64,000 nt of DNA from Deltaproteobacteria bacterium (lineage in GTDB: Bacteria > Myxococcota_A > UBA9160 > SZUA-336): positions 1 through 64,000 of the forward strand of contig JAJDAJ010000068.1 in NCBI GenBank assembly GCA_029261925.1, given 5' to 3'. A program made the position numbers and the translations under genes. Below the pieces are notes generated by a model. The model did not search any database. It was not told where the DNA came from and saw nothing but the letters and a program-made list of their open reading frames with translations. This document shows positions 19,932-64,000 of the stretch, one piece after another. The stretch's first letter is position 1; the number at the start of each line of letters is the position of its first letter.

Positions 19932-21056
19932 TCAGACCGGCGTCGTCAGCACCTCGGGCTCGAAGCGGAACAGGCGCGCGGCCGTGCCGCCGACCATCCC
20001 GGCGGCGTCGGCGACCGGGACGCCGGCGAACTGCTCCTGCACGGACTTTCGCGAGTTCGGGTAGGTGCCCTCGGCGTGCGGGAAGTCCGAGCCCCACATC
20101 AGGGGAGACGTACCGGTCCGCGCCATGGCGGCGACGGCGACCGGGTCATACTGGAAGGTGCCGTGGATCTGGCGCGACATGTAGTCGCTCGGCTTCTCCG
20201 CGAGATCGGGCCAGACCCAGCCCTCGTACTCCTGGAACGCCTGGTGGTAGTAGTCGACCGTGTTCATGGCCCAGGCGAGCCAGCTCGCGTTGGTCTCGAC
20301 GTACACGAAGTGCAGGCCGGGGTGGGCAGCGAGCACGCCCGAGGTCGCCAGCAGCGCGGCCCCCCGCGGCGCCATCGACTGCGTGGCCAGCAGGTTGGAG
20401 ACGGCGGCGCCGGGGCCGCGGTAGAAGAGCATGCTGTGGCCCGTGCCCTGGTGCATGACCACCGGCATGCCGATCTCCTCGATCGCGTGCCAGAGCGGCT
20501 GCCATTGCCGGTGGTTGTACTCGGGCGTGCCGACCAGCGGCAGCATGGCCGCGGCCAGGCCCAGGTCTGCGGCGCGGCGCACCTCAGCGATCGCGGCCTC
20601 GACGTTCCAGGTCGGGATCATGGCGGCGCAGCGAAAGCGCGGCGAGCGCGACTCCAGCCGGTCGTGGACCCAGTCGTTGTAGAGCCGGCAGCAGGCCTCG
20701 CCGACCGCCCCGTCCTCGAGGTTCCACACGTACAGGCCCGCGCTCGGATAGATGCACTCGCCCGAGATGCCGTCCTCGCGCATCACCGCGAAGCGTCGCT
20801 CGGGATCCGCGGTCAGCTCGCAGAGCGCGTCGATGTCACTGGCGCCCGCGCTCCGCGCCGCGTCGGTCAGCGCCTTGGCCTCGGCGGCGTTGTCGATCCC
20901 GATGCGCTGCGCGAACGTCGAGGCCGCGTTCGCGTCGCGCCGCAGCTCGGGCGGCAGCCGGTCGTGCATCGACGCCGGCAGGTTCTGGACCCACAGGTAG
21001 CTGGGCTCCTCGACGTGGCTGTCGGCCGAGATCAGGGGGAGGCTGGAAAGATCCAT
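19932..21056 (-). CDS. Amidohydrolase family protein (amidohydrolase_2 type)
   Basis: LISADSHVEEP metal motif start; MPVVMHQGTGHSM; GSDFPHAEGTYPNS. Confidence 0.9.
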   Translation of the reverse strand: MDLSSLPLISADSHVEEPSYLWVQNLPASMHDRLPPELRRDANAASTFAQRIGIDNAAEAKALTDAARSAGASDIDALCELTADPERRFAVMREDGISGECIYPSAGLYVWNLEDGAVGEACCRLYNDWVHDRLESRSPRFRCAAMIPTWNVEAAIAEVRRAADLGLAAAMLPLVGTPEYNHRQWQPLWHAIEEIGMPVVMHQGTGHSMLFYRGPGAAVSNLLATQSMAPRGAALLATSGVLAAHPGLHFVYVETNASWLAWAMNTVDYYHQAFQEYEGWVWPDLAEKPSDYMSRQIHGTFQYDPVAVAAMARTGTSPLMWGSDFPHAEGTYPNSRKSVQEQFAGVPVADAAGMVGGTAARLFRFEPEVLTTPV

Positions 21057-21063
21057 CGAGACC

Positions 21064-22335
21064 TCAGGAGATGGAGCCGTAGGTGAGCTCGTAGCTCTTG
21101 CGGTAGTCCGCCTTCGATCGGATCCGCAGGTCCACGTCGTTCGAGCGGGCGCGGGCGCGCAGGGCCCCGACGGTCGCCTCCTCGCGCGTCACGTGCTGGA
21201 ACGGATCGAAGCGCAGCCAGCGCGCCGCGTTGCCGTGGGTGATCTTCGCGATCTCCTCGTCGCTGCAGCGAGCGAGCTCGATGTGCTCCCAGAGCTCCTC
21301 GGCCGAGTTCGGGAAGGTGCAGTCCGAGTGCGGGTAGTCGACCTCGTAGGCGATGTTGTCGATGCCGATGCGGTCACGCAGCAGCAGGCCCGAGGGATCG
21401 CAGATGAAGCAGGCCAGGAAGTGGCGCTGGAACATCTCGGTGGGCGTCAGCCCGCCGAGGTCCGAGCCCACCCACTTCTGCACGTGGAACTGGCGCTCCA
21501 TGCGGTCGAGGAAGCCCGGGATCCACGACGTGCCGCCCTCGGACAGGGCGATGCGCAGGTCGGGGTACTTCACCAGCGACTTCGACCAGAGCAGGTTGGC
21601 GGCGCACGGCAGCGCGTTCCAGCACGGCAGGGTGCTGGACACCTCGAGCGGCACCTCCTGGTCCGCCGGCATCACGTTCTGGCCCGAGGCGATGTGGATG
21701 GCGACGACCACGTCCTCGTCGCAGCAGGCCGCGAAGAACGGATCCCAGGCGCCGCTGTGGATGTTCGGGTAGCCGAAGGACTCCGGCGCCTCGGAGAAGG
21801 TGATCGCCGTGGCGCCCTTGCGCGCGACCCGGCGCACCTCCTTCGCGGCCAGCTCCGGGTCCCAGAGCGGCGAGAGCGGCAGCGGGATGAAGCGTCCCGG
21901 ATGACTGCCGGCCCACTCGTCGATGTGCCAGTCGTTGTAGGCCTGCAGCGCCGCGTAGCCGAGCTCGCGGTCGGCGCACTCGCCGAAGAAGTGGCCCGCC
22001 ATGCCGGCGAACGACGGGAAGCACATCGAGGCCAGCACGCCGTTGGCGTCCATGTCCCGCACGCGCTCGTTCACGTCCCAGCAGCCCGGGCGCATCTCGG
22101 CCAGCGTGCTCGGGTCGTAGCCCCACTCGTCGGGCGGCAGGGTGACCACGGCACAGATGAACGGGGTGGCGGTGGTGCCTCCCTCCCAGGTCCAGCTCTG
22201 CATCCCCGTGGCGGGGTCGAAGACCATGCGTGGCGCCCGATCGGCCCAGCGCTGCGGGATGTGGTTGTCGAAGACCGTCGCCGGCTCGACGATGTGGTCA
22301 TCGACGCTCACCAGGATCATCTCGTCGAGCTGCAT
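21064..22335 (-). CDS. Amidohydrolase family protein (amidohydrolase_2 type)
   Basis: LVSVDDHIVEP; EVDYPHSDCTFPNSAEELWEHI; same family as the upstream gene. Confidence 0.9.
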   Translation of the reverse strand: MQLDEMILVSVDDHIVEPATVFDNHIPQRWADRAPRMVFDPATGMQSWTWEGGTTATPFICAVVTLPPDEWGYDPSTLAEMRPGCWDVNERVRDMDANGVLASMCFPSFAGMAGHFFGECADRELGYAALQAYNDWHIDEWAGSHPGRFIPLPLSPLWDPELAAKEVRRVARKGATAITFSEAPESFGYPNIHSGAWDPFFAACCDEDVVVAIHIASGQNVMPADQEVPLEVSSTLPCWNALPCAANLLWSKSLVKYPDLRIALSEGGTSWIPGFLDRMERQFHVQKWVGSDLGGLTPTEMFQRHFLACFICDPSGLLLRDRIGIDNIAYEVDYPHSDCTFPNSAEELWEHIELARCSDEEIAKITHGNAARWLRFDPFQHVTREEATVGALRARARSNDVDLRIRSKADYRKSYELTYGSIS

Positions 22336-26208: not shown

Positions 26209-27408
26209 TCAGGCGTCGATCAGCGCCTGCATCTGCTCGATCACGTAGTCGATGTCCTCGACGCTCATGCCCTGGTGCGCGGGCAGCATCAGCGCGTGGG
26301 CCATCACCCGGTCGGCGTTCGGGAAGCCGTCCTTGGGCTCCCGGCGCGGGATGTCGCAGAAGCCGGGCTGGCGGCAGATGTTCCCGCTCCAGACCACGCG
26401 CGTGGGCACGCCGCGTTCCTCGAGGAAGACCTGCGTGGCGGTGCGGTCCAGACCGCTCTCGGACCGCACCATGAACGGGTAGAGCATCCAGGTGGTCTCG
26501 AGCTCCGGGGTGGTCTCGGGCCGGATCAAGCGGTCCTCGTGCTCGCTGAACCAGGCGTCGTAGCGCTCGAACGCCAGGCGCCGGCGCGCATTGAAATCCT
26601 GGAGCTTGTCGAGCTGCACCCTGCCGAAGCACGCCCCGAGCTCGCTGGGCTCGAAGTTGAAGCAGCGCGCGTCCTCGAACACGAAGATGTTGTCGTAGGG
26701 CAGACCGTCCACCGTGGCGCTGAAGCGATCGTCCTGACCGCGGCGCGAGCCGAACATGTAGCTCTCCGAGCGTCGACCCCAGCGGCGCTTGACCAGGCAG
26801 CGGTCGAGCAGCTCCTCGTCGTCGAGACCGACCAGTCCGCCGCCGCCCGCAGCGGTGATCGAGTGGCTGACCGCGAAGCTGGTCACGCCGATGTCGGCGC
26901 GGGTGCCGGTCGGCGTGCCGCGCAGGGTCGTGTCGAGCACGTCGCAGCTGTCCTCGACCACCTTCAGGCCATGGCGGTCGGCGATGGCGCGGATCGCGTC
27001 CCAGTCGGGACAGTTGCCCACGAGGTTGGGCGTGAGGATGGCGCGCGTGCGCGGCCCGATCATCTCCTCGATGCGCGCCACGTCGATCTGGTAGGTGGCC
27101 GGCTCCACGTCGACGAACGCCGGCACCACGCCCGATCGAACCATCGGCGCGATGTCGGCCGAGAACGTGAGCACCGAGGTCACGACCTCGTCGCCGGGCT
27201 GCAGGTCGAGCAGGTCGAGGGCCAGGTACAGCGCCGAGGTGCCCGAGTTGACCATGACGCCGAAGCGCTTCGACAGTAGCTCCGCGACGCGCTTCTCGAA
27301 GGCCTCGACGTTGCGGCCGATGTGCAGCCGGCTCTTCTGCAGCAGCTCGGTCACGGCCTGGATCTCGCGCTCGTCGTGGGTGCTGCCCGGGGGCGTGATC
27401 TTTCGCAT
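26209..27408 (-). CDS. DegT/DnrJ/EryC1/StrS-family PLP protein with His at the PLP-Lys position
   Basis: LYLALDLLDLQPGDEVVTSVLTFSADIAPMVRSG; VVEDSCDVLDTT; active-site segment VTSFAVSHSITAAGGGGLVG. Start at MRKITPPG (CAT 27406-27408). Confidence 0.9.
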   Translation of the reverse strand: MRKITPPGSTHDEREIQAVTELLQKSRLHIGRNVEAFEKRVAELLSKRFGVMVNSGTSALYLALDLLDLQPGDEVVTSVLTFSADIAPMVRSGVVPAFVDVEPATYQIDVARIEEMIGPRTRAILTPNLVGNCPDWDAIRAIADRHGLKVVEDSCDVLDTTLRGTPTGTRADIGVTSFAVSHSITAAGGGGLVGLDDEELLDRCLVKRRWGRRSESYMFGSRRGQDDRFSATVDGLPYDNIFVFEDARCFNFEPSELGACFGRVQLDKLQDFNARRRLAFERYDAWFSEHEDRLIRPETTPELETTWMLYPFMVRSESGLDRTATQVFLEERGVPTRVVWSGNICRQPGFCDIPRREPKDGFPNADRVMAHALMLPAHQGMSVEDIDYVIEQMQALIDA

Positions 27409-27475: not shown

Positions 27476-28120
27476 ATGACCGAGCCCACCAGTGCCGAGC
27501 TGCTCCGGGAGATCCGCGCGCTGCGCGGGCGCGTGCAGGAGCTCGAGGACCGTGAGGCGGTGCGGCAGCTCACCGCGGAGTACATGCAGGCCATGCACGA
27601 CGCCCGCTGGGAGGATGCCGTCGCCTGCTTCGCACAGGACGCCACCTACGACCACGGGATCCTCGGCGAGCTGCGCTCGAAGGAGGATCTGCGGACGTTC
27701 TACACCGAGTTCGTGCCGCGCTTCGAGGAGGCCGGGGGCTGGGCCTTCGACGTGCTGGCGGACCCGGTGATCCACGTGGACGGCGACCGCGCCGAGGGCC
27801 GCTGGTTCCTGCTCACCCTGCTGATCGATCCCGCGACCCAGGAGGCCGCCTGGAGCATGGCGACGCTCGAGTACGAGTACGCCCGCATCGACGGCCGCTG
27901 GCTCTTCCAGCGCAACCGCTGCATCAGCGAGCACCTGCTCTCCCCCTACAGCAAGGGCTGGGGCCCGCGGGCCGGCAGCAAGCTTCCCGGGGCGGCCGAC
28001 GCCCTCCCGATCCAGCACTTCGAGCGGCTGGAGTCGCAGGGCGGCAAGCAGAAGCCGGGCAAGCTCTGCCGCTCGATCCGCGGCTGGACCGTGCCGACCC
28101 TGGAGCCGGCGGCGGAGTAG
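27476..28120 (+). CDS. SnoaL/NTF2-like fold protein
   Basis: ELEDREAVRQLTAEYMQAMHDARWEDAVACFAQDATYDHGILGELRSKEDLRTFY is a typical SnoaL-like N-terminus. Confidence 0.85.
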   Translation: MTEPTSAELLREIRALRGRVQELEDREAVRQLTAEYMQAMHDARWEDAVACFAQDATYDHGILGELRSKEDLRTFYTEFVPRFEEAGGWAFDVLADPVIHVDGDRAEGRWFLLTLLIDPATQEAAWSMATLEYEYARIDGRWLFQRNRCISEHLLSPYSKGWGPRAGSKLPGAADALPIQHFERLESQGGKQKPGKLCRSIRGWTVPTLEPAAE

Positions 28121-28125
28121 CCGCC

Positions 28126-28422
28126 TGCCAGCAGGCTGCTGAAAATCGACCGAGGTGGGCCCGCGGGCGGGTGACCTCCGCCGGCCGAGGAGGGAGCCCT
28201 TCGCGCGCTCCGCGCGCTTTTCCCAATCGTCCGTCGGAGCTCACCCGCCCACGGGCCCTCAGCGGCGTCGGGTTCACGCTGGCGCCCCGTCGCCAGCAAT
28301 GAGCGCAAGCGGACCAGGTCGTAGGCGGTCGCCCGAATACGAACATCCAGTCCACCCGCCGTCTCCCGCGATGGCGTGTCTTGCGCAGCCCACCGACGGA
28401 CGCTTTTCAGCAGCCGGCTAGC
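28126..28422 (-). mobile_element. Degenerate insertion-sequence remnant bounded by imperfect inverted repeats
   Basis: TGCCAGCAGGCTGCTGAAAA (28126-28145) and CTTTTCAGCAGCCGGCTAGC (28403-28422) are near-perfect inverted repeats; the minus strand between them encodes VRIRATAYDLVRLRSLLATG...RSIFSSLLA, resembling a DDE-transposase C-terminus. Confidence 0.5.
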
Positions 28423-29350
28423 CCTTCGCGTGGCGCGCCACGAAGTCGCGGATGCGTGCGCTGGCGATGCGGGCGAGCTCGGTGGGAAAGAGCGTGAAGC
28501 CGTGCACGCACTCCGGATAGACGGCCAGCTCGGCCTCGTTGCCCGCCGCGCGCCAGCGCAGCGCCATGAACAGCGAGTCGTCGTAGAGGTAGTCCGCGGT
28601 ACCGACCGTGAACAGCGCAGGCGGCAGCCCGCTCAGCTCGGCGTACAGCGGAGAGACGTCGGGATGCTTGCGCGCGAGCGTGTCGAGCCCGCCCACGTAC
28701 AGGTCGCGGAACTCCGTCATCTCCAGGTGGAACTGCGACGGCGTGCCCGAGACGTCGTACACGCCGAACTCGAGGTTTGCGGCCGCGAACGCACCGGCAG
28801 CATCGTGACGGTCGCGCATGCGCAGCAGGGTGACCGCGGCCAGGTTGCCGCCCGCGGAGCCTCCGCCGATCATCAGGCGATCACTGCCGAGCTCGCGGCG
28901 CGCGTGCTCGAGCACCCAGACGGCCGCCGCCTCGCAGTCGTCGGGTCCTGCGGGATACGGATTCTCGGGGGCGAGGCGGTAGTCGACGCTGACGATCGCG
29001 ACCCGGGCGTGCTCCGCCAGCGCGCGGTTGGCGCGGTCGTCCATCGCGGCCTCGCCCATGAAGAAGCCGCCGCCGTGAATGTCGACGTAGACGGCGCGTA
29101 CCTCGCCGTCGGGCACGTGGATGCGCAGGCCGACGGGCCCCGCGGGGCCGGCGATCTCGCGCGTCTCGAAGCCGGGCAGCGGCTCCATCGAGAACGCGCC
29201 TCCCATCAGGTTGCTCAGGTCGCGCGCCTTCTCGATCGCCTCGGGCGTCCACGCCGTCGGACCGCCGCTGGCCGGCAGCTTCGCATTGAATGCCCGGGTC
29301 TCGGGCACGTGCGCGTCGAGCGCGGGGTCCCAGAGGCGGCTCAGGTCCAT
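28418..29350 (-). CDS. Alpha/beta hydrolase, HSL-type acetyl esterase/lipase
   Basis: Oxyanion motif VDIHGGGFFMG and nucleophile GGGSAGGNLA; start CAT 29348-29350. The stop codon lies inside the inverted repeat. Confidence 0.92.
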   Translation of the reverse strand: MDLSRLWDPALDAHVPETRAFNAKLPASGGPTAWTPEAIEKARDLSNLMGGAFSMEPLPGFETREIAGPAGPVGLRIHVPDGEVRAVYVDIHGGGFFMGEAAMDDRANRALAEHARVAIVSVDYRLAPENPYPAGPDDCEAAAVWVLEHARRELGSDRLMIGGGSAGGNLAAVTLLRMRDRHDAAGAFAAANLEFGVYDVSGTPSQFHLEMTEFRDLYVGGLDTLARKHPDVSPLYAELSGLPPALFTVGTADYLYDDSLFMALRWRAAGNEAELAVYPECVHGFTLFPTELARIASARIRDFVARHAKG

Positions 29351-29445: not shown

Positions 29446-31332
29446 ATGGGAAAGACAGCCGACACGGCCGATGGCGCCTTCATCCGCCGCGCGGTCGAGG
29501 CATCGGACCTCGAGGCCCTGCGCGCGGCGCTGTACCAGGCGTCGGGCGATCCGGAGCTGGCGAGCTACGCGCCGGTCGCGACGCTGGGGCCGGAGGCGCA
29601 CGAGCGGCTCGTGGAGCGGGCGATCGACGTGCTCGAGAAGGAGCGCGACCGCTGGACGCCGCGCGTGCCCTCCGACGCGGAGGTGCGCCGGATCATGGAC
29701 GTGGTCCTGGGTGTGCCGACGCGCGACGAGCACTTCGAGGTGCGGCGGAAGATGCTCGGCTTCGAGAGCTTCCCCTTCCTCCACACGCGGCCGGAGGGTC
29801 CGCTCGCAGTGCCCGAGGGCTTCGAGGTCGCGATCATCGGCGCCGGGCTCGCGGGCATTGCCATGGCGGTGCAGCTCGGGCTCCTGGGCATTCCCTACGT
29901 CGTCTACGAGAAGCGATCCGAGATCGGCGGCACCTGGAGCCGGAACACCTACCCGGACATCCGCGTCGACACGCTGAGCATCACCTACGAGTTCAGCTTC
30001 GACGAGCAGTACCCGTGGAGCGAGTACTTCGCCCGCGGCGCCGAGGTGCGCGGCTACCTCGAGCACGTGGCGCGGAGGTACGGCGTGACCGAGCACGTGC
30101 GCCTGGAGCACGCGCTCGAGACAGCGACCTGGGACGAGACGGAGCGCGGCTGGCGGCTGCGCCTCCGCGGGCCCGACGGCGCCCGCGTGGAGCGCCGGGC
30201 GAGCGCGGTGGTCAGTGCGGCAGGGCTGTTCGCGAACCCCCGACGCCCGGACCTTCCGGGCAGCGACGTCTTCGAGGGCACGATGGTCCACCCCACCGAG
30301 TGGCCCGGGGACCTGAAGCTCGCCGGCCAGCGGGTCGCGGTCGTGGGCAACGGCTCGACGGGCGTGCAGCTGCTCGCCCCCGTGGCTCGCGATGCGGCGC
30401 GGGTGCACGTCTTCCAGCGCACGCCACAGTGGATCGCGCCGCGCCCGCACTACGGCGAGGCGATCGAGCCCGAGGTGCGCTGGCTGCTCGATCACGTCCC
30501 GGGCTACTGGAACTGGTGTCGCTACACCTCGATGATCAACCTGTTCACCTGGCACGAGGACTACCTGGTGCCGGATCCCGACTGGGAGAGCCAGGGCGGG
30601 TACATCACCCGCAAGAGCGAGGAGCTGCGCGAGTTCCTGATCGGCTACATCCGCGAGCAGATCGGCGACCGGCCCGACCTGCTGGAGAAGCTGATCCCCG
30701 ACTACGCGCCGATGGTCCGGCGCCCCGTCGTCGACAACGGCTGGTACCGTGCGCTCACACGCGACAACGTGGAGCTGGTCACCGAGGGCATCGCGCGCCT
30801 CACGCCGACCGGGATCGAGACCCTGGACGGCGCGCACCGCGAGCTCGACGTGCTCGTGCTCGCCACGGGATACGACGTGAGTACGTATCTCTGGCCCGCG
30901 ACCTACACCGGCCGCGACGGCGTCGACCTGCAGGACTTCTGGCGCCAGGAAAGCCCGCGCGCGTACCTCGGGATGATGGTCCCCCGCTTCCCGAACCTGT
31001 TCATGCTCTACGGCCCGAACTCGCAGCCCGCGTCGGGCGGGATCTCGCTGCCCTCCTGGTTCCAGATCTGGGCCGGCTACGTCGGGCAGTGCCTGGCGAC
31101 CCTGCTCGAGCGCGGCCACGCCACGGTGAGCGTCCGCGAGAAGGCCTACGAGGAGCACAACCGGCGGCTCGACGCGGAGGCCTCGCAGATGGCCTTCGTG
31201 AAGGACACGTCGGCCGGCAAGAACTACTACGTGAACGCCGACGGCCGCCTGCAGGTCAACTCGCCCTTCGAGACGGCCGACCTCTGGGCGATGCAGCGGG
31301 CCCCCGATCCCGCGGACCTCGAGTTCCGCTGA
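29446..31332 (+). CDS. Flavin-containing Baeyer-Villiger-type monooxygenase
   Basis: FAD Rossmann AIIGAGLAGIAMAVQ; BVMO fingerprint FEGTMVHPTEWP (FxGxxxHxxxWP); second Rossmann VVGNGSTGVQL. Confidence 0.93.
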   Translation: MGKTADTADGAFIRRAVEASDLEALRAALYQASGDPELASYAPVATLGPEAHERLVERAIDVLEKERDRWTPRVPSDAEVRRIMDVVLGVPTRDEHFEVRRKMLGFESFPFLHTRPEGPLAVPEGFEVAIIGAGLAGIAMAVQLGLLGIPYVVYEKRSEIGGTWSRNTYPDIRVDTLSITYEFSFDEQYPWSEYFARGAEVRGYLEHVARRYGVTEHVRLEHALETATWDETERGWRLRLRGPDGARVERRASAVVSAAGLFANPRRPDLPGSDVFEGTMVHPTEWPGDLKLAGQRVAVVGNGSTGVQLLAPVARDAARVHVFQRTPQWIAPRPHYGEAIEPEVRWLLDHVPGYWNWCRYTSMINLFTWHEDYLVPDPDWESQGGYITRKSEELREFLIGYIREQIGDRPDLLEKLIPDYAPMVRRPVVDNGWYRALTRDNVELVTEGIARLTPTGIETLDGAHRELDVLVLATGYDVSTYLWPATYTGRDGVDLQDFWRQESPRAYLGMMVPRFPNLFMLYGPNSQPASGGISLPSWFQIWAGYVGQCLATLLERGHATVSVREKAYEEHNRRLDAEASQMAFVKDTSAGKNYYVNADGRLQVNSPFETADLWAMQRAPDPADLEFR

Positions 31333-54470: not shown

Positions 54471-55793
54471 GTGACCGTGGCGAGCGAGCCGACCGGAACC
54501 CCGCTTCAGAAGTTCCCCGAGCCGGAGTACCTCGACGACCCGATCCCCGCCGAGCGCTACACGAGCCCGGAGTTCGCGGCGCGCGAGTGGAAGCGCATGT
54601 GGACGCGGACCTGGCAGATCGCCGGACCCGAGTCCGACGTCGCGAAGGTGGGCGACTACTTCACCTTCGAGATCGGGCACGAGTCGATCCTGGTGGTGCG
54701 CTCGGCGCCGGACGAGCTCTCGGCGTTCTACAACGTCTGCCAGCACCGCGCGAGCCAGATCGTCACGCAGCGCGGCTGCGGCCACGCGCGGGCCTTCACC
54801 TGCCCCTACCACCTGTGGAGCTACGACCTCGAGGGTCGCCTGCGCGGGCTGCCGGACCGCGACGACTTCCGGCAGGGCATCCCCGAAGGCATGCGCATCC
54901 CGGCGGTCCGGGTGGACACCTGGGGCGGCTGGGTCTGGATCAACATGAACCCCGACGCCGAGCCCCTGGGCAGGTTCCTCCGCCCGGTCGTCGAGCACCT
55001 TGATCCCTACGACTTCGGCGCGAGCTACGCGCTGACGCGCGATGTCACCTTCGACTGGGCCTGCAACTGGAAGGTCGCCGTCGACGCGTTCAACGAGGTC
55101 TACCACGTGGCCGGCATCCACCCGGAGCTGATCCCCTTCACCGACGACGTGGACTGCCCGATCGACCTGCTGGGCAAGCACAGCCGCTTCCTCTTCCACG
55201 TGGGTCGCCCGAGCCCGCGCTGGACCGACCAGAAGGCCCACGCCGCGGGCTATCCCGACCGCAGGGCGCTCACCCAGGAGCTGCGCGGGCTGCTCCAGGC
55301 CTACGGGGTCGACGCGGCGCCGTTCGAGCGCGACAGCAGCGGTGCGCGCGGTGCGCTGATCCGGGCGCAGCGCGAGCTCGGCGAGCAGAAGGGGTGGAAC
55401 CTGTCCGCTCTCAACGACGAGCAGCTCTGGATCGACGTTCACTACCAGCTCTTCCCGAACGTCACGCTGAACATCAGCGTCGGGCACTTCTGGTTCTTCC
55501 GCGCTCGACCGCATCCCGACGACCCCAACCGCATGTTCTGGGACTTCCAGGAGTATCACCGGATGGCACCCGGCGGCCCGCGTCCGCAGCGACCCGAGCA
55601 CGTGCACTCCGACTGGGGCGGGGAGGAGCGCGCCGCGCTGCACCTGGCCCTGCGTCAGGACGGGGACACGGCCCCGCCGCAGCAGCGCGGCCTGCGCTCG
55701 CGCGGCTTCCGCGGCCTGCACCTGGCCCACCAGGAGCGCCGCATCCGCCACTTCCACCACGTTCTCGACGGCTACCTCGGAGACGGGAGGTGA
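54471..55793 (+). CDS. Rieske non-heme iron ring-hydroxylating oxygenase, alpha-subunit type
   Basis: Rieske motif NVCQHRASQIVTQRGCGHARAFTCPYHLWSY; catalytic domain NWKVAVDAFNEVYHVAGIHPE. GTG start at 54471. Confidence 0.93.
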   Translation: MTVASEPTGTPLQKFPEPEYLDDPIPAERYTSPEFAAREWKRMWTRTWQIAGPESDVAKVGDYFTFEIGHESILVVRSAPDELSAFYNVCQHRASQIVTQRGCGHARAFTCPYHLWSYDLEGRLRGLPDRDDFRQGIPEGMRIPAVRVDTWGGWVWINMNPDAEPLGRFLRPVVEHLDPYDFGASYALTRDVTFDWACNWKVAVDAFNEVYHVAGIHPELIPFTDDVDCPIDLLGKHSRFLFHVGRPSPRWTDQKAHAAGYPDRRALTQELRGLLQAYGVDAAPFERDSSGARGALIRAQRELGEQKGWNLSALNDEQLWIDVHYQLFPNVTLNISVGHFWFFRARPHPDDPNRMFWDFQEYHRMAPGGPRPQRPEHVHSDWGGEERAALHLALRQDGDTAPPQQRGLRSRGFRGLHLAHQERRIRHFHHVLDGYLGDGR

Positions 55794-57235
55794 CCCGGAC
55801 GACGGAGATCCGCGACGCAGCCGCGATCGGGAGCTGGGAGGCCGAGGCCGACGTGCTCGTCGTCGGCCTGGGCTGCGCCGGTGCGAGCGCGGCGATCGAG
55901 GCACACGACGCCGGCGCCGACGTGATCATCCTGGAGCGGAGCGGCGGCGGTGGCGGGACCTCCGCGAACTCCGGAGGTCTGATCTACATGGGCGGGGGCA
56001 CGCCCGTGCAGGAGGCCGCGGGCTTCGAGGACACGCCCGAGGAGCTGTACCGCTTCCTCATGGCGGTCTCGGCGCCGGGGCCCGACGAGACCAAGATCCG
56101 CCTGTACAGCGAGTCGAGCGTGGAGCACTTCCACTGGCTCGAGACCCAGGGCGTGCCCTTCAAGCGCAGCTTCTGGCCCGAGCCGAGCATGGAGTCCCCG
56201 ACCGACGACTGCCTGGTCTTCAGCGGCGGGGAGAACTGCGCGCCGTTCAGCGAGATCGCGCGCCCCGCGGCACGGGGCCACAAGCCGCAGACCGAAGGCA
56301 AGGCCGGCCCGTTCTTCATGCAGTGCATGCTGCGCGCGGTGGAGCGCCGCCCGCTGCGCGTCGAGGTGGACACGCGCGCTCAGACGCTCGTGCGCGAGGC
56401 CGACGGCCGCATCGCCGGCGTGGTCGCGCGCCGCGCCGGCGAGGAGCTGGCGTTCCGCGCACGCCGCGGCGTGATCCTGACCGCAGGCGGCTTCGCGATG
56501 AACGACGGGATGGTCGAGCGCCACGTCCCCCAGCTCGCGCGGGTGGGTACGCGGAGCGCGACCGAGGGTGACGACGGCTGCGGCATCCGCATGGGCCAGG
56601 CGGCGGGAGGCAGCCTGCTGCGCATGGAGCAGGCCGAGGTCGCCCTGGCCACCACGATCCCCAGCCGCCTGGGCCGCGGGATCTACGTGAACGCGCGCGG
56701 CCTGCGCTTCATCAACGAGGACACCTACTACGGGCACATCGGCATCGAGGCCCTGTTCCGCCAGGGCGGCCGGGCCTGGCTGCTCGTGGACGACGCCACC
56801 TTCGAGCGAAACTTCTTCGACCAGAAGCCGCTGCACGTCGCGGAGACCATCGCCGGGCTCGAGGCCGAGGCCGGCTTTCCCGCGGGAGCGCTGGTGAACA
56901 CCGTCGCGCAGTACAACCGCGGTGCGGAGGCCGGCGCGGACCCGATCTTCGGCAAGCGGCCCGAGTTCCTGGTCCCGCTGGTGCACCCGCCCTACGCGCT
57001 GCTCGACTGCACCACCGAGGGCGGCCCCTACAGCGGGCTCACCGTGGGCGGCCTGGCGACCGGCACGAGCGGCGAGGTGCTCGACGCCGAGGATGACCCC
57101 GTTTCCGGCCTGTACGCGGCCGGCAGGACCGCGGCGCTGTTCTGCGGACGCGGCTACGCCGGCAGCGGCATCTCGCTGGCCGACGGGACCTTCTTCGGAC
57201 GGCGCGCCGGACGCCACGCCGCCTCGGGGAGCTGA
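55790..57235 (+). CDS. FAD-dependent oxidoreductase, 3-ketosteroid delta1-dehydrogenase/fumarate reductase-like
   Basis: ADVLVVGLGCAGASAAIEAHDAGADVIILERSGGGGGTSANSGGLIYMGGGT; GVILTAGGFAMND; LYAAGRTAALFCGRGYAGSGISLADGTFFGRRAG. GTG start overlaps previous stop. Confidence 0.9.
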   Translation: MTRTTEIRDAAAIGSWEAEADVLVVGLGCAGASAAIEAHDAGADVIILERSGGGGGTSANSGGLIYMGGGTPVQEAAGFEDTPEELYRFLMAVSAPGPDETKIRLYSESSVEHFHWLETQGVPFKRSFWPEPSMESPTDDCLVFSGGENCAPFSEIARPAARGHKPQTEGKAGPFFMQCMLRAVERRPLRVEVDTRAQTLVREADGRIAGVVARRAGEELAFRARRGVILTAGGFAMNDGMVERHVPQLARVGTRSATEGDDGCGIRMGQAAGGSLLRMEQAEVALATTIPSRLGRGIYVNARGLRFINEDTYYGHIGIEALFRQGGRAWLLVDDATFERNFFDQKPLHVAETIAGLEAEAGFPAGALVNTVAQYNRGAEAGADPIFGKRPEFLVPLVHPPYALLDCTTEGGPYSGLTVGGLATGTSGEVLDAEDDPVSGLYAAGRTAALFCGRGYAGSGISLADGTFFGRRAGRHAASGS

Positions 57236-57247
57236 AGGGAGAGCGAG

Positions 57248-58069
57248 ATGGAGCTGAGCGGATTCGAGGGGAAGGTGGCGCTGGTCACGGGAGCCGGGCG
57301 CATGCGCAGCATCGGTCGGCCCATCGCCGTGGAGCTCGCGCGTGCGGGCTGCGACGTGGTCGTGACGGGGACCGCGCGCCCGCCCGAGCAGTTCCCAGAG
57401 CACGAGCGGGACGTCGGCTGGCGCGGCATCGAGTCGGTCGCGGAGGAGATCCGCGCGCTCGGACGCCGCGCCCTGGCCGCCACCAGCGACGTCTCGGATC
57501 CCGGGGCGGTCGAGGCACTGGCCGCGCAGGTGATCGACGAGCTCGGGCGGGTGGACTTCGTGATCAACAACGCCGGCGCCGCACGCGGCAGCGACCGCGT
57601 GCCCGTGGTCGACCTGTCGCTGGACGACTGGCACAGGGTCATCGAGACGAACCTCAACGGGACCTTCTACATGTCGCGGACCTTCGCGCGGCGCATGATC
57701 GAGCAGGGCGACGGGGGCGCGATCATCAACATCTCGTCGATCGCCGGCAAGATCCTCCCGGCGAACACCGCGGCCTACGCGGCGAGCAAGGCCGGCATCC
57801 AGGCGCTGACCGCTTCGATGGCGCAGGAGATCGGCTCGCAGGGCATCCGCGTCAACGCGATCTGCCCGGGCATCGTCGACACGTACCGCATGGACGACGT
57901 GCCGCGCGGCGAGGTCTGGGACCGCATGGTCAAGGATCGCGTTCCCATGGGGCGCGCCGGCACGGGTGAGGACATCGCCTGGATCGCGGTGTACCTGTGC
58001 AGCGAGCAGGGCTCGTGGATCACCGGGCAGTCCTACAACGTCGATGGCGGCACCGTCGTCCAGCACTGA
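57248..58069 (+). CDS. SDR family oxidoreductase
   Basis: KVALVTGAGRMRSIGRPIAVELARAGCDVVVTG; FVINNAGAARGSD; YAASKAGIQALTASMAQEIGSQGIRVNAICPG. Confidence 0.93.
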   Translation: MELSGFEGKVALVTGAGRMRSIGRPIAVELARAGCDVVVTGTARPPEQFPEHERDVGWRGIESVAEEIRALGRRALAATSDVSDPGAVEALAAQVIDELGRVDFVINNAGAARGSDRVPVVDLSLDDWHRVIETNLNGTFYMSRTFARRMIEQGDGGAIINISSIAGKILPANTAAYAASKAGIQALTASMAQEIGSQGIRVNAICPGIVDTYRMDDVPRGEVWDRMVKDRVPMGRAGTGEDIAWIAVYLCSEQGSWITGQSYNVDGGTVVQH

Positions 58070-63829: not shown

Positions 63830-64000
63830 TCAGCGGCCCTTCTCGACCCGCTCGCGTACCCGCCCGGCGACGAAGCGCACGGTGTCGTCATCGAGGGCGT
63901 GGCTCAGCGGCAGCAACACGCCGCGCTCCATGACGGCATCGGTCTCGGGCAGTCCCCCGGGCGGCACGCGGACAGGTACGCCGCGCAGCATCGGCTGGCG
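63830..64000 (-). CDS. C-terminal fragment, possibly DegT/DnrJ/StrS family (continues off the right edge)
   Basis: Open frame to the window edge on minus: RQPMLRGVPVRVPPGGLPETDAVMERGVLLPLSHALDDDTVRFVAGRVRERVEKGR*, resembling the C-terminal MerGvlLPl...L.dd.v.yv pattern of DegT-family proteins. Confidence 0.4.
   Translation of the reverse strand, partial: RQPMLRGVPVRVPPGGLPETDAVMERGVLLPLSHALDDDTVRFVAGRVRERVEKGR

Follow-up and report, generated by a model that had tools for sequence, protein, structure and literature searches.

On balance, we find it somewhat probable that a DegT-fold gene in the window, the whole stretch of 64,000 nucleotides analyzed here, encodes a PMP deoxygenase of the ColD type that was recruited out of CDP-sugar metabolism and now serves the catabolism of steroid- or isoprenoid-like ketols. 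This estimate covers the reading as a whole; the chemistry alone and the steroid role of the actinobacterial relatives are rated higher, and the exact substrate of the window's enzyme is rated lower. The predicted chemistry of a B6-dependent deoxygenase is well supported by the conserved active-site residues. The results suggest that B6 chemistry serves bacteria in removing hydroxyl groups from steroid-like molecules.

The best start of the open reading frame was an ATG at 27408, and the stop codon ended at 26209 (Table 1). The encoded protein matched the Pfam family DegT_DnrJ_EryC1 (PF01041) over its full length (E=5e-82; 276.4 bits, cut-off 19.8). Its top NCBIfam match was RfbH with 256.6 bits, below the cut-off of 423, and the protein therefore lies outside every curated equivalog. 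Identity to the nearest relatives in other genomes was 71-77%, and the dN/dS of the family gene was approximately 0.27-0.33. By sequence, the closest PDB chain was E1 (3bcx). The AlphaFold2 model (mean pLDDT 90, pTM 0.89) likewise matched the fold of E1 first (TM 0.90/0.86), followed by sugar aminotransferases and ColD.

Table 1. Positions of the DegT-fold gene, its predicted active-site elements and associated genes in the window.
Feature	Position	Strand	Basis or remark
DegT-fold B6 enzyme, His-type, PMP 3-dehydratase-like	26209..27408	(-)	399 aa; ORF, Pfam, PDB alignment, AlphaFold2
Asn54-Ser-Gly-Thr-Ser58, predicted cofactor-phosphate loop	27235..27249	(-)	alignment; coordinates from start 27408
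Asp153-Ser-Cys-Asp156, predicted pyridine-N aspartate (Asp153) and acidic residue (Asp156)	26941..26952	(-)	alignment; coordinates from start 27408
Active-site segment SFAVSHSITAAGGGG, residues 177-191	26836..26880	(-)	ORF translation, alignment
CAC codon of His182, Schiff-base lysine position	26863..26865	(-)	alignment with E1 His220, ColD His188
SnoaL-like gene, oriented divergently to DegT, candidate member	27476..28120	(+)	
Alpha/beta hydrolase (Abhydrolase_3)	28418..29350	(-)	Embleya has a homolog next to its DegT gene; possible association
BVMO/FMO-like flavoprotein	29446..31332	(+)	homologs near DegT at five other loci and in Embleya; possible association
Second family copy, C-terminal end; SDR just upstream on the same strand	63830..64000 (contig 63830-65038)	(-)	scan of the window's genome

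According to the original prediction, a histidine replaces the PLP-binding lysine, with its CAC codon at 26863-26865 on the minus strand. Exactly this codon was found in the open reading frame; the surrounding segment exists as described, and its span is 26836-26880 instead of 26851-26890. The alignment with ColD and E1 that had been proposed as a check placed His182 in one column with His220 of E1 (3bcx) and His188 of ColD (2gms). This column holds Lys in the E1 H220K mutant 3bb8, and Asn and Lys in the ColD mutants 3b8x and 2r0t, respectively. Ser177 of SFAVSHSITAAGGGG aligned with ColD Ser183. E1, ColD, and SpnQ carry His where the catalytic lysine would be, and this His serves as both acid and base (PMC8987622). 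The column was His in all 53 first-round relatives that cover it and in 68 of the 68 rows of the final family alignment, and Lys in four DegT aminotransferases from the window's genome. His182 is thus explained neither by chance nor by an error in sequencing nor by an isolated mutation. A nearby Lys at the Schiff-base position, which the prediction had named as evidence against itself, was sought by alignment and no such residue was present. A hidden Schiff-base lysine was ruled out, since the family alignment contained no conserved Lys near His182 and the nearest downstream, Lys207, varies. Another DegT protein with His for Lys (STYVAHFIV; L087) was observed outside both E1 and this family.

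The other cofactor positions, N54-S-G-[TS]-S58, D153, S177, and N251, were retained across the family in the alignment, and a GN..R motif (342-346) was common to E1 and the family. Position 156 was Asp here and in E1, Glu in ColD, and Gln or His in Lys-type enzymes from the window's genome. E1 and ColD have a second His in the active site; the family did not retain it and has S, A, I, or V instead. At the positions of the E1 [2Fe-2S] cysteines 193, 251, 253, and 261, the window's protein carried C155, S214, M218, and D226. Cysteines 251, 253, and 261 of E1 were replaced throughout the family, and the position of C193 was Cys or Ala; it is Cys in the cluster-free ColD as well. All four Fe-S cysteines were retained in E1-like proteins from the same class (L079, L080). 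An E1-type Fe-S enzyme was ruled out because three of the four cluster cysteines are replaced. The Fe-S cluster is present in E1 and SpnQ and absent from ColD (PMC8987622). The anatomy of ColD, namely the His, an acid at the Gln position, and no Fe-S cysteine set, is present in the DegT protein. ColD-type chemistry is therefore predicted from the retained cofactor residues, the His, and the missing Fe-S cysteine set, and the active site looks like that of a ColD-type PMP 3-dehydratase rather than that of an aminotransferase.

In the proposed cycle, a steroid- or isoprenoid-like substrate with a vicinal diol would first have one of the two hydroxyls oxidized to a ketone, in many cases by a partner SDR. 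The ketone would condense with enzyme-bound PMP, and abstraction of the C4' proton from this PMP by His182 would be accompanied by loss of the neighboring hydroxyl as water. Hydrolysis of the unsaturated intermediate would give the deoxy-ketone and leave PLP behind, which would be converted to PMP via glutamate; such re-amination would make an Fe-S cluster and a reductase unnecessary. The deoxygenated product could then feed ring oxidation or beta-oxidation. From gene context alone, we infer that an SDR takes part and that the substrate is steroid-like; the steps from condensation onward are drawn by analogy with characterized relatives. An enzyme of similar PMP/PLP anatomy might instead act differently on these substrates, for example by ketone amination or deamination or by an isomerization. 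In the absence of its reductase, the His-type SpnQ does act as an aminotransferase, whereas no such activity is seen for E1 or ColD under the SpnQ conditions (PMC8987622), and a normal transamination cycle is impaired without the lysine. Such a reaction is thus rather unlikely compared with the deoxygenation proposed here.

A first scan of bacterial genomes for relatives yielded 49 loci. The relatives belonged to Acidimicrobiia and other Actinomycetota MAGs, to Rhodococcus, Nocardia, Tomitella, Blastococcus, and Geodermatophilus, to a Myxococcales MAG, and to MAGs labelled Proteobacteria. Matches were found in 16 of 60 genomes of the window's own class and family, with up to six copies per genome, and in an even draw of genomes over the phylum the family was found only in the window's class. 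The window's genome has the copy at 26209, a second copy straddling the end of the window, and probably a third. Two half genes at contig ends (L007/L092 and L009/L090, on contigs C32 and C13 of this genome) appear to be a single third copy that the assembly split. In the tree, the second copy grouped with the actinobacterial steroid-operon clade, apart from the window's own copy.

This tree was a quick IQ-TREE analysis with SH-aLRT support only, in which ColD and the aminotransferases lie on long branches. The 68 family rows formed one group (SH-aLRT 100) adjoining E1-like proteins, and ColD was placed outside the group of E1 plus the family on a very long branch. The origin of the enzyme most likely lies within the DegT family on the side of E1/RfbH. 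Proteins of Sinorhizobium meliloti pSymB, Roseibium, Leisingera, and Palleronia formed one clade (99) basal to a catabolic group of 62 rows that includes the window's protein (SH-aLRT 98). The DegT genes of Roseibium, Leisingera, and Palleronia are annotated directly after rfbF and rfbG (CDP-glucose 4,6-dehydratase), and at the unannotated pSymB locus, gene calls gave two similar-looking genes at the places of rfbF and rfbG. The proteins encoded at these four loci (L150-L153), named aminotransferases where annotated, have the catalytic His and no Fe-S cysteines, and are likely cluster-free CDP-4-keto-6-deoxyglucose 3-dehydratases. Since the basal clade lies next to rfbF-rfbG, the ancestral role was likely that of a nucleotide-sugar 3-dehydratase. 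Position 215 was Glu in 62 of 62 catabolic rows and Ser in the sugar clade; position 179 was Ala or Ser in the catabolic clade and Tyr in the sugar clade and in E1. The prediction of a ColD/E1-like dehydratase or a new activity in place of an aminotransferase is thus backed by His for Lys, Asp156, and the GN..R motif, and also by E1 as the closest PDB relative in sequence and fold and by the rfbF-rfbG sister clade.

In Rhodococcus, Nocardia, Tomitella, Blastococcus, and Geodermatophilus, the DegT gene lay within a conserved operon encoding MaoC-type and ChsH2-type OB proteins, Ltp2, DegT, an SDR, a steroid 3-ketoacyl-CoA thiolase, and fused and single acyl-CoA dehydrogenases. The operon Ltp2 scored 650 bits (cut-off 469), and the steroid 3-ketoacyl-CoA thiolases, with scores of 595 and 584, exceeded their cut-off of 515 bits. 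The operon is of the igr-like, steroid side-chain type, and a TetR gene lies divergent to it. A small conserved protein of approximately 140 aa without a Pfam match (L045:6350-6766 and equivalents) was encoded between the ChsH2-type gene and Ltp2. Further Ltp2 copies occurred elsewhere in the Rhodococcus carriers, and the copy in the DegT operon was the sole one in Blastococcus and Geodermatophilus. In the latter two genera, the operon lay inside a cluster with KshA, KstD, HsaA, HsaC, HsaD, and aldolase homologs, where matches to several Hsa and KstD models fell below the equivalog cut-offs and denote homologs by family with orthology unproven. Other Mycobacteriaceae-type genomes showed the DegT gene in different arrangements, near KshA in several and, on reading, with genes resembling KstD and HsaD in some.

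Among 121 Mycobacteriaceae-type genomes, at least two Ltp2 copies were present in 19 of 19 DegT carriers versus 14 of 102 non-carriers (p=1e-13), and in all nine carriers with the DegT gene outside the igr-like operon (p=2e-7); the genomes counted are related, so these p-values are optimistic. KshA was present in 19/19 carriers of this set. In seven of the 21 genomes, where chance would give 0.7, it lay within 20 kb of the DegT gene, the seven representing approximately four distinct arrangements. The case for a steroid role of the actinobacterial clade is strong.

The enzyme could still be a nucleotide-sugar 3-dehydratase whose product, a 3,6-dideoxysugar, goes into a glycolipid or a glycan of the cell surface, with its catabolic surroundings incidental, as the position of the nearest sister clade directly after rfbF and rfbG and of E1 as the nearest solved relative might suggest. 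However, homologs of the Roseibium rfbF, rfbG, methyltransferase, and glycosyltransferases were absent from the loci of the 62-row clade, save for an isolated rfbF-like gene in L060. The conservation of the operon with steroid genes over five genera, and the replacement of two residues that are invariable in the sugar clade (Tyr179 by Ala/Ser and Ser215 by a Glu without exception), also make a sugar role unlikely.

Among tightly coupled neighbors of the DegT gene (same strand, gap of at most 20 bases), 23 of 42 were SDRs, versus approximately 12% of such gene slots overall. One SDR subfamily paired with DegT in Nocardiaceae/Geodermatophilaceae, in Acidimicrobiales, and in L061, which is related to the window, with 41-47% identity to the Rhodococcus SDR in Acidimicrobiales and 44% in L061. 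The SDR was downstream of DegT in the first two groups and upstream in L061. This pairing fits an enzyme that needs a ketone beside the hydroxyl to be removed. We tentatively suggest that the chemistry of PMP 3-dehydratases was transferred in catabolism from CDP-sugars to lipophilic ketols of a ring or side chain, with several paralogs per genome serving different substrates. A hopanoid side chain was rejected as the substrate, as the sole hint was the MAG name 'Hopanoidivorans' (L048) with no gene or paper behind it; it is kept merely as one possible candidate polyol.

Gfo/Idh/MocA oxidoreductases or xylose-isomerase-like TIM barrels at L034-L037 and on R. erythropolis pLRE138 would suit an enzyme that takes part in the breakdown of a glycosylated natural product by acting on its sugar or cyclitol moiety, leaving the terpenoid skeleton untouched. 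The best-conserved operon, however, carries side-chain beta-oxidation and aldolase genes, and no glycosidase was identified there, which renders this role improbable.

The original prediction had also argued from the neighboring 2-hydroxyacid dehydrogenase, RraA-like, and Ldh_2 genes that the substrate may be unusual. These genes had no counterpart at 69 related loci, and the substrate argument drawn from them was dropped for want of conservation. The conclusion itself stands, because relatives sit in steroid or other catabolic clusters, outside sugar clusters. The surroundings in the window were catabolic, including SDRs, acyl-CoA ligases, luciferase-like monooxygenases, Amidohydro_2, BVMO-like, GMC, and Rieske proteins, and a KstD-superfamily flavoprotein. 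A Rieske oxygenase, the KstD-superfamily flavoprotein, and an SDR were encoded consecutively at 54471-58069. This flavoprotein has a homolog near the DegT gene in L016, and a flavoprotein of the Geodermatophilus steroid cluster matched the same NCBIfam model. Amidohydro_2 genes near the DegT gene recurred in several lineages (L160:4957-7912, L022, L024, L059, and window 19932-22335).

Directly beside the window's DegT gene at 26209-27408 there was no SDR, and a true KshA was not evident in the window's genome, where KshA-domain matches reached approximately 110 bits versus approximately 310 in Rhodococcus. No linkage to steroid ring or side-chain genes was found at the window's own locus. With no adjoining SDR and weak KshA matches, the steroid link is therefore not automatically transferable to the window's gene, for which we only infer a steroid role. 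The chemistry, but not the substrate, would transfer to the window's protein with fair confidence. Loss of the lysine by itself could mean that catalysis was lost, but a non-catalytic DegT-fold protein with a regulatory or structural role is hardly credible given the invariant cofactor residues and a His that is never lost across several bacterial lineages.

Three characterized 3-dehydratases, E1, ColD, and SpnQ, have been described, all acting on nucleotide sugars (PMC8987622). Database annotation names proteins of the present His-type family aminotransferases. If deoxygenation of steroid- or isoprenoid-like ketols is the true function, vitamin-B6 chemistry would join steroid degradation and provide a new way of deoxygenating polyhydroxylated natural steroids. 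The DegT operon is carried by cultured relatives in Rhodococcus and Geodermatophilus.

A search of the open-access literature found no DegT or B6 enzyme in steroid operons, which does not by itself prove absence. To our knowledge, no B6 enzyme belongs to the known igr pathway. The protein families of the mycobacterial igr operon (ChsE1/E2, ChsH1/H2, Ltp2), which acts in steroid side-chain removal, also surround the actinobacterial DegT gene, although in Rhodococcus the DegT-bearing operon is a separate, paralogous one. The Fe-S-free DegT proteins downstream of rfbF-rfbG share the His, a GxGG-type signature, the lack of Fe-S cysteines, and 46-49% identity with the Rhodococcus member; unlike the catabolic clade with its Ala/Ser and invariant Glu, they have Tyr179 and Ser215 and are encoded in a sugar-nucleotide operon. 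E1/RfbH (CDP-6-deoxy-L-threo-D-glycero-4-hexulose 3-dehydrase, 3bcx) resembles the DegT protein in its fold, with a TM of 0.90, and likewise has the catalytic His, an Asp where aminotransferases have Gln, and GN..R, whereas the DegT protein is only approximately 29% identical to it and has neither the [2Fe-2S] cysteine set nor the second His. ColD (GDP-4-keto-6-deoxy-D-mannose 3-dehydratase, 2gms) shows approximately 26% identity and is distant in the tree on a long branch, and the DegT gene lies outside a GDP-sugar operon; yet the two share the catalytic His, the absence of an Fe-S cluster, and an acid at the Gln position, and the glutamate-recycled mechanism of ColD would, by analogy, be the one expected for the DegT protein.
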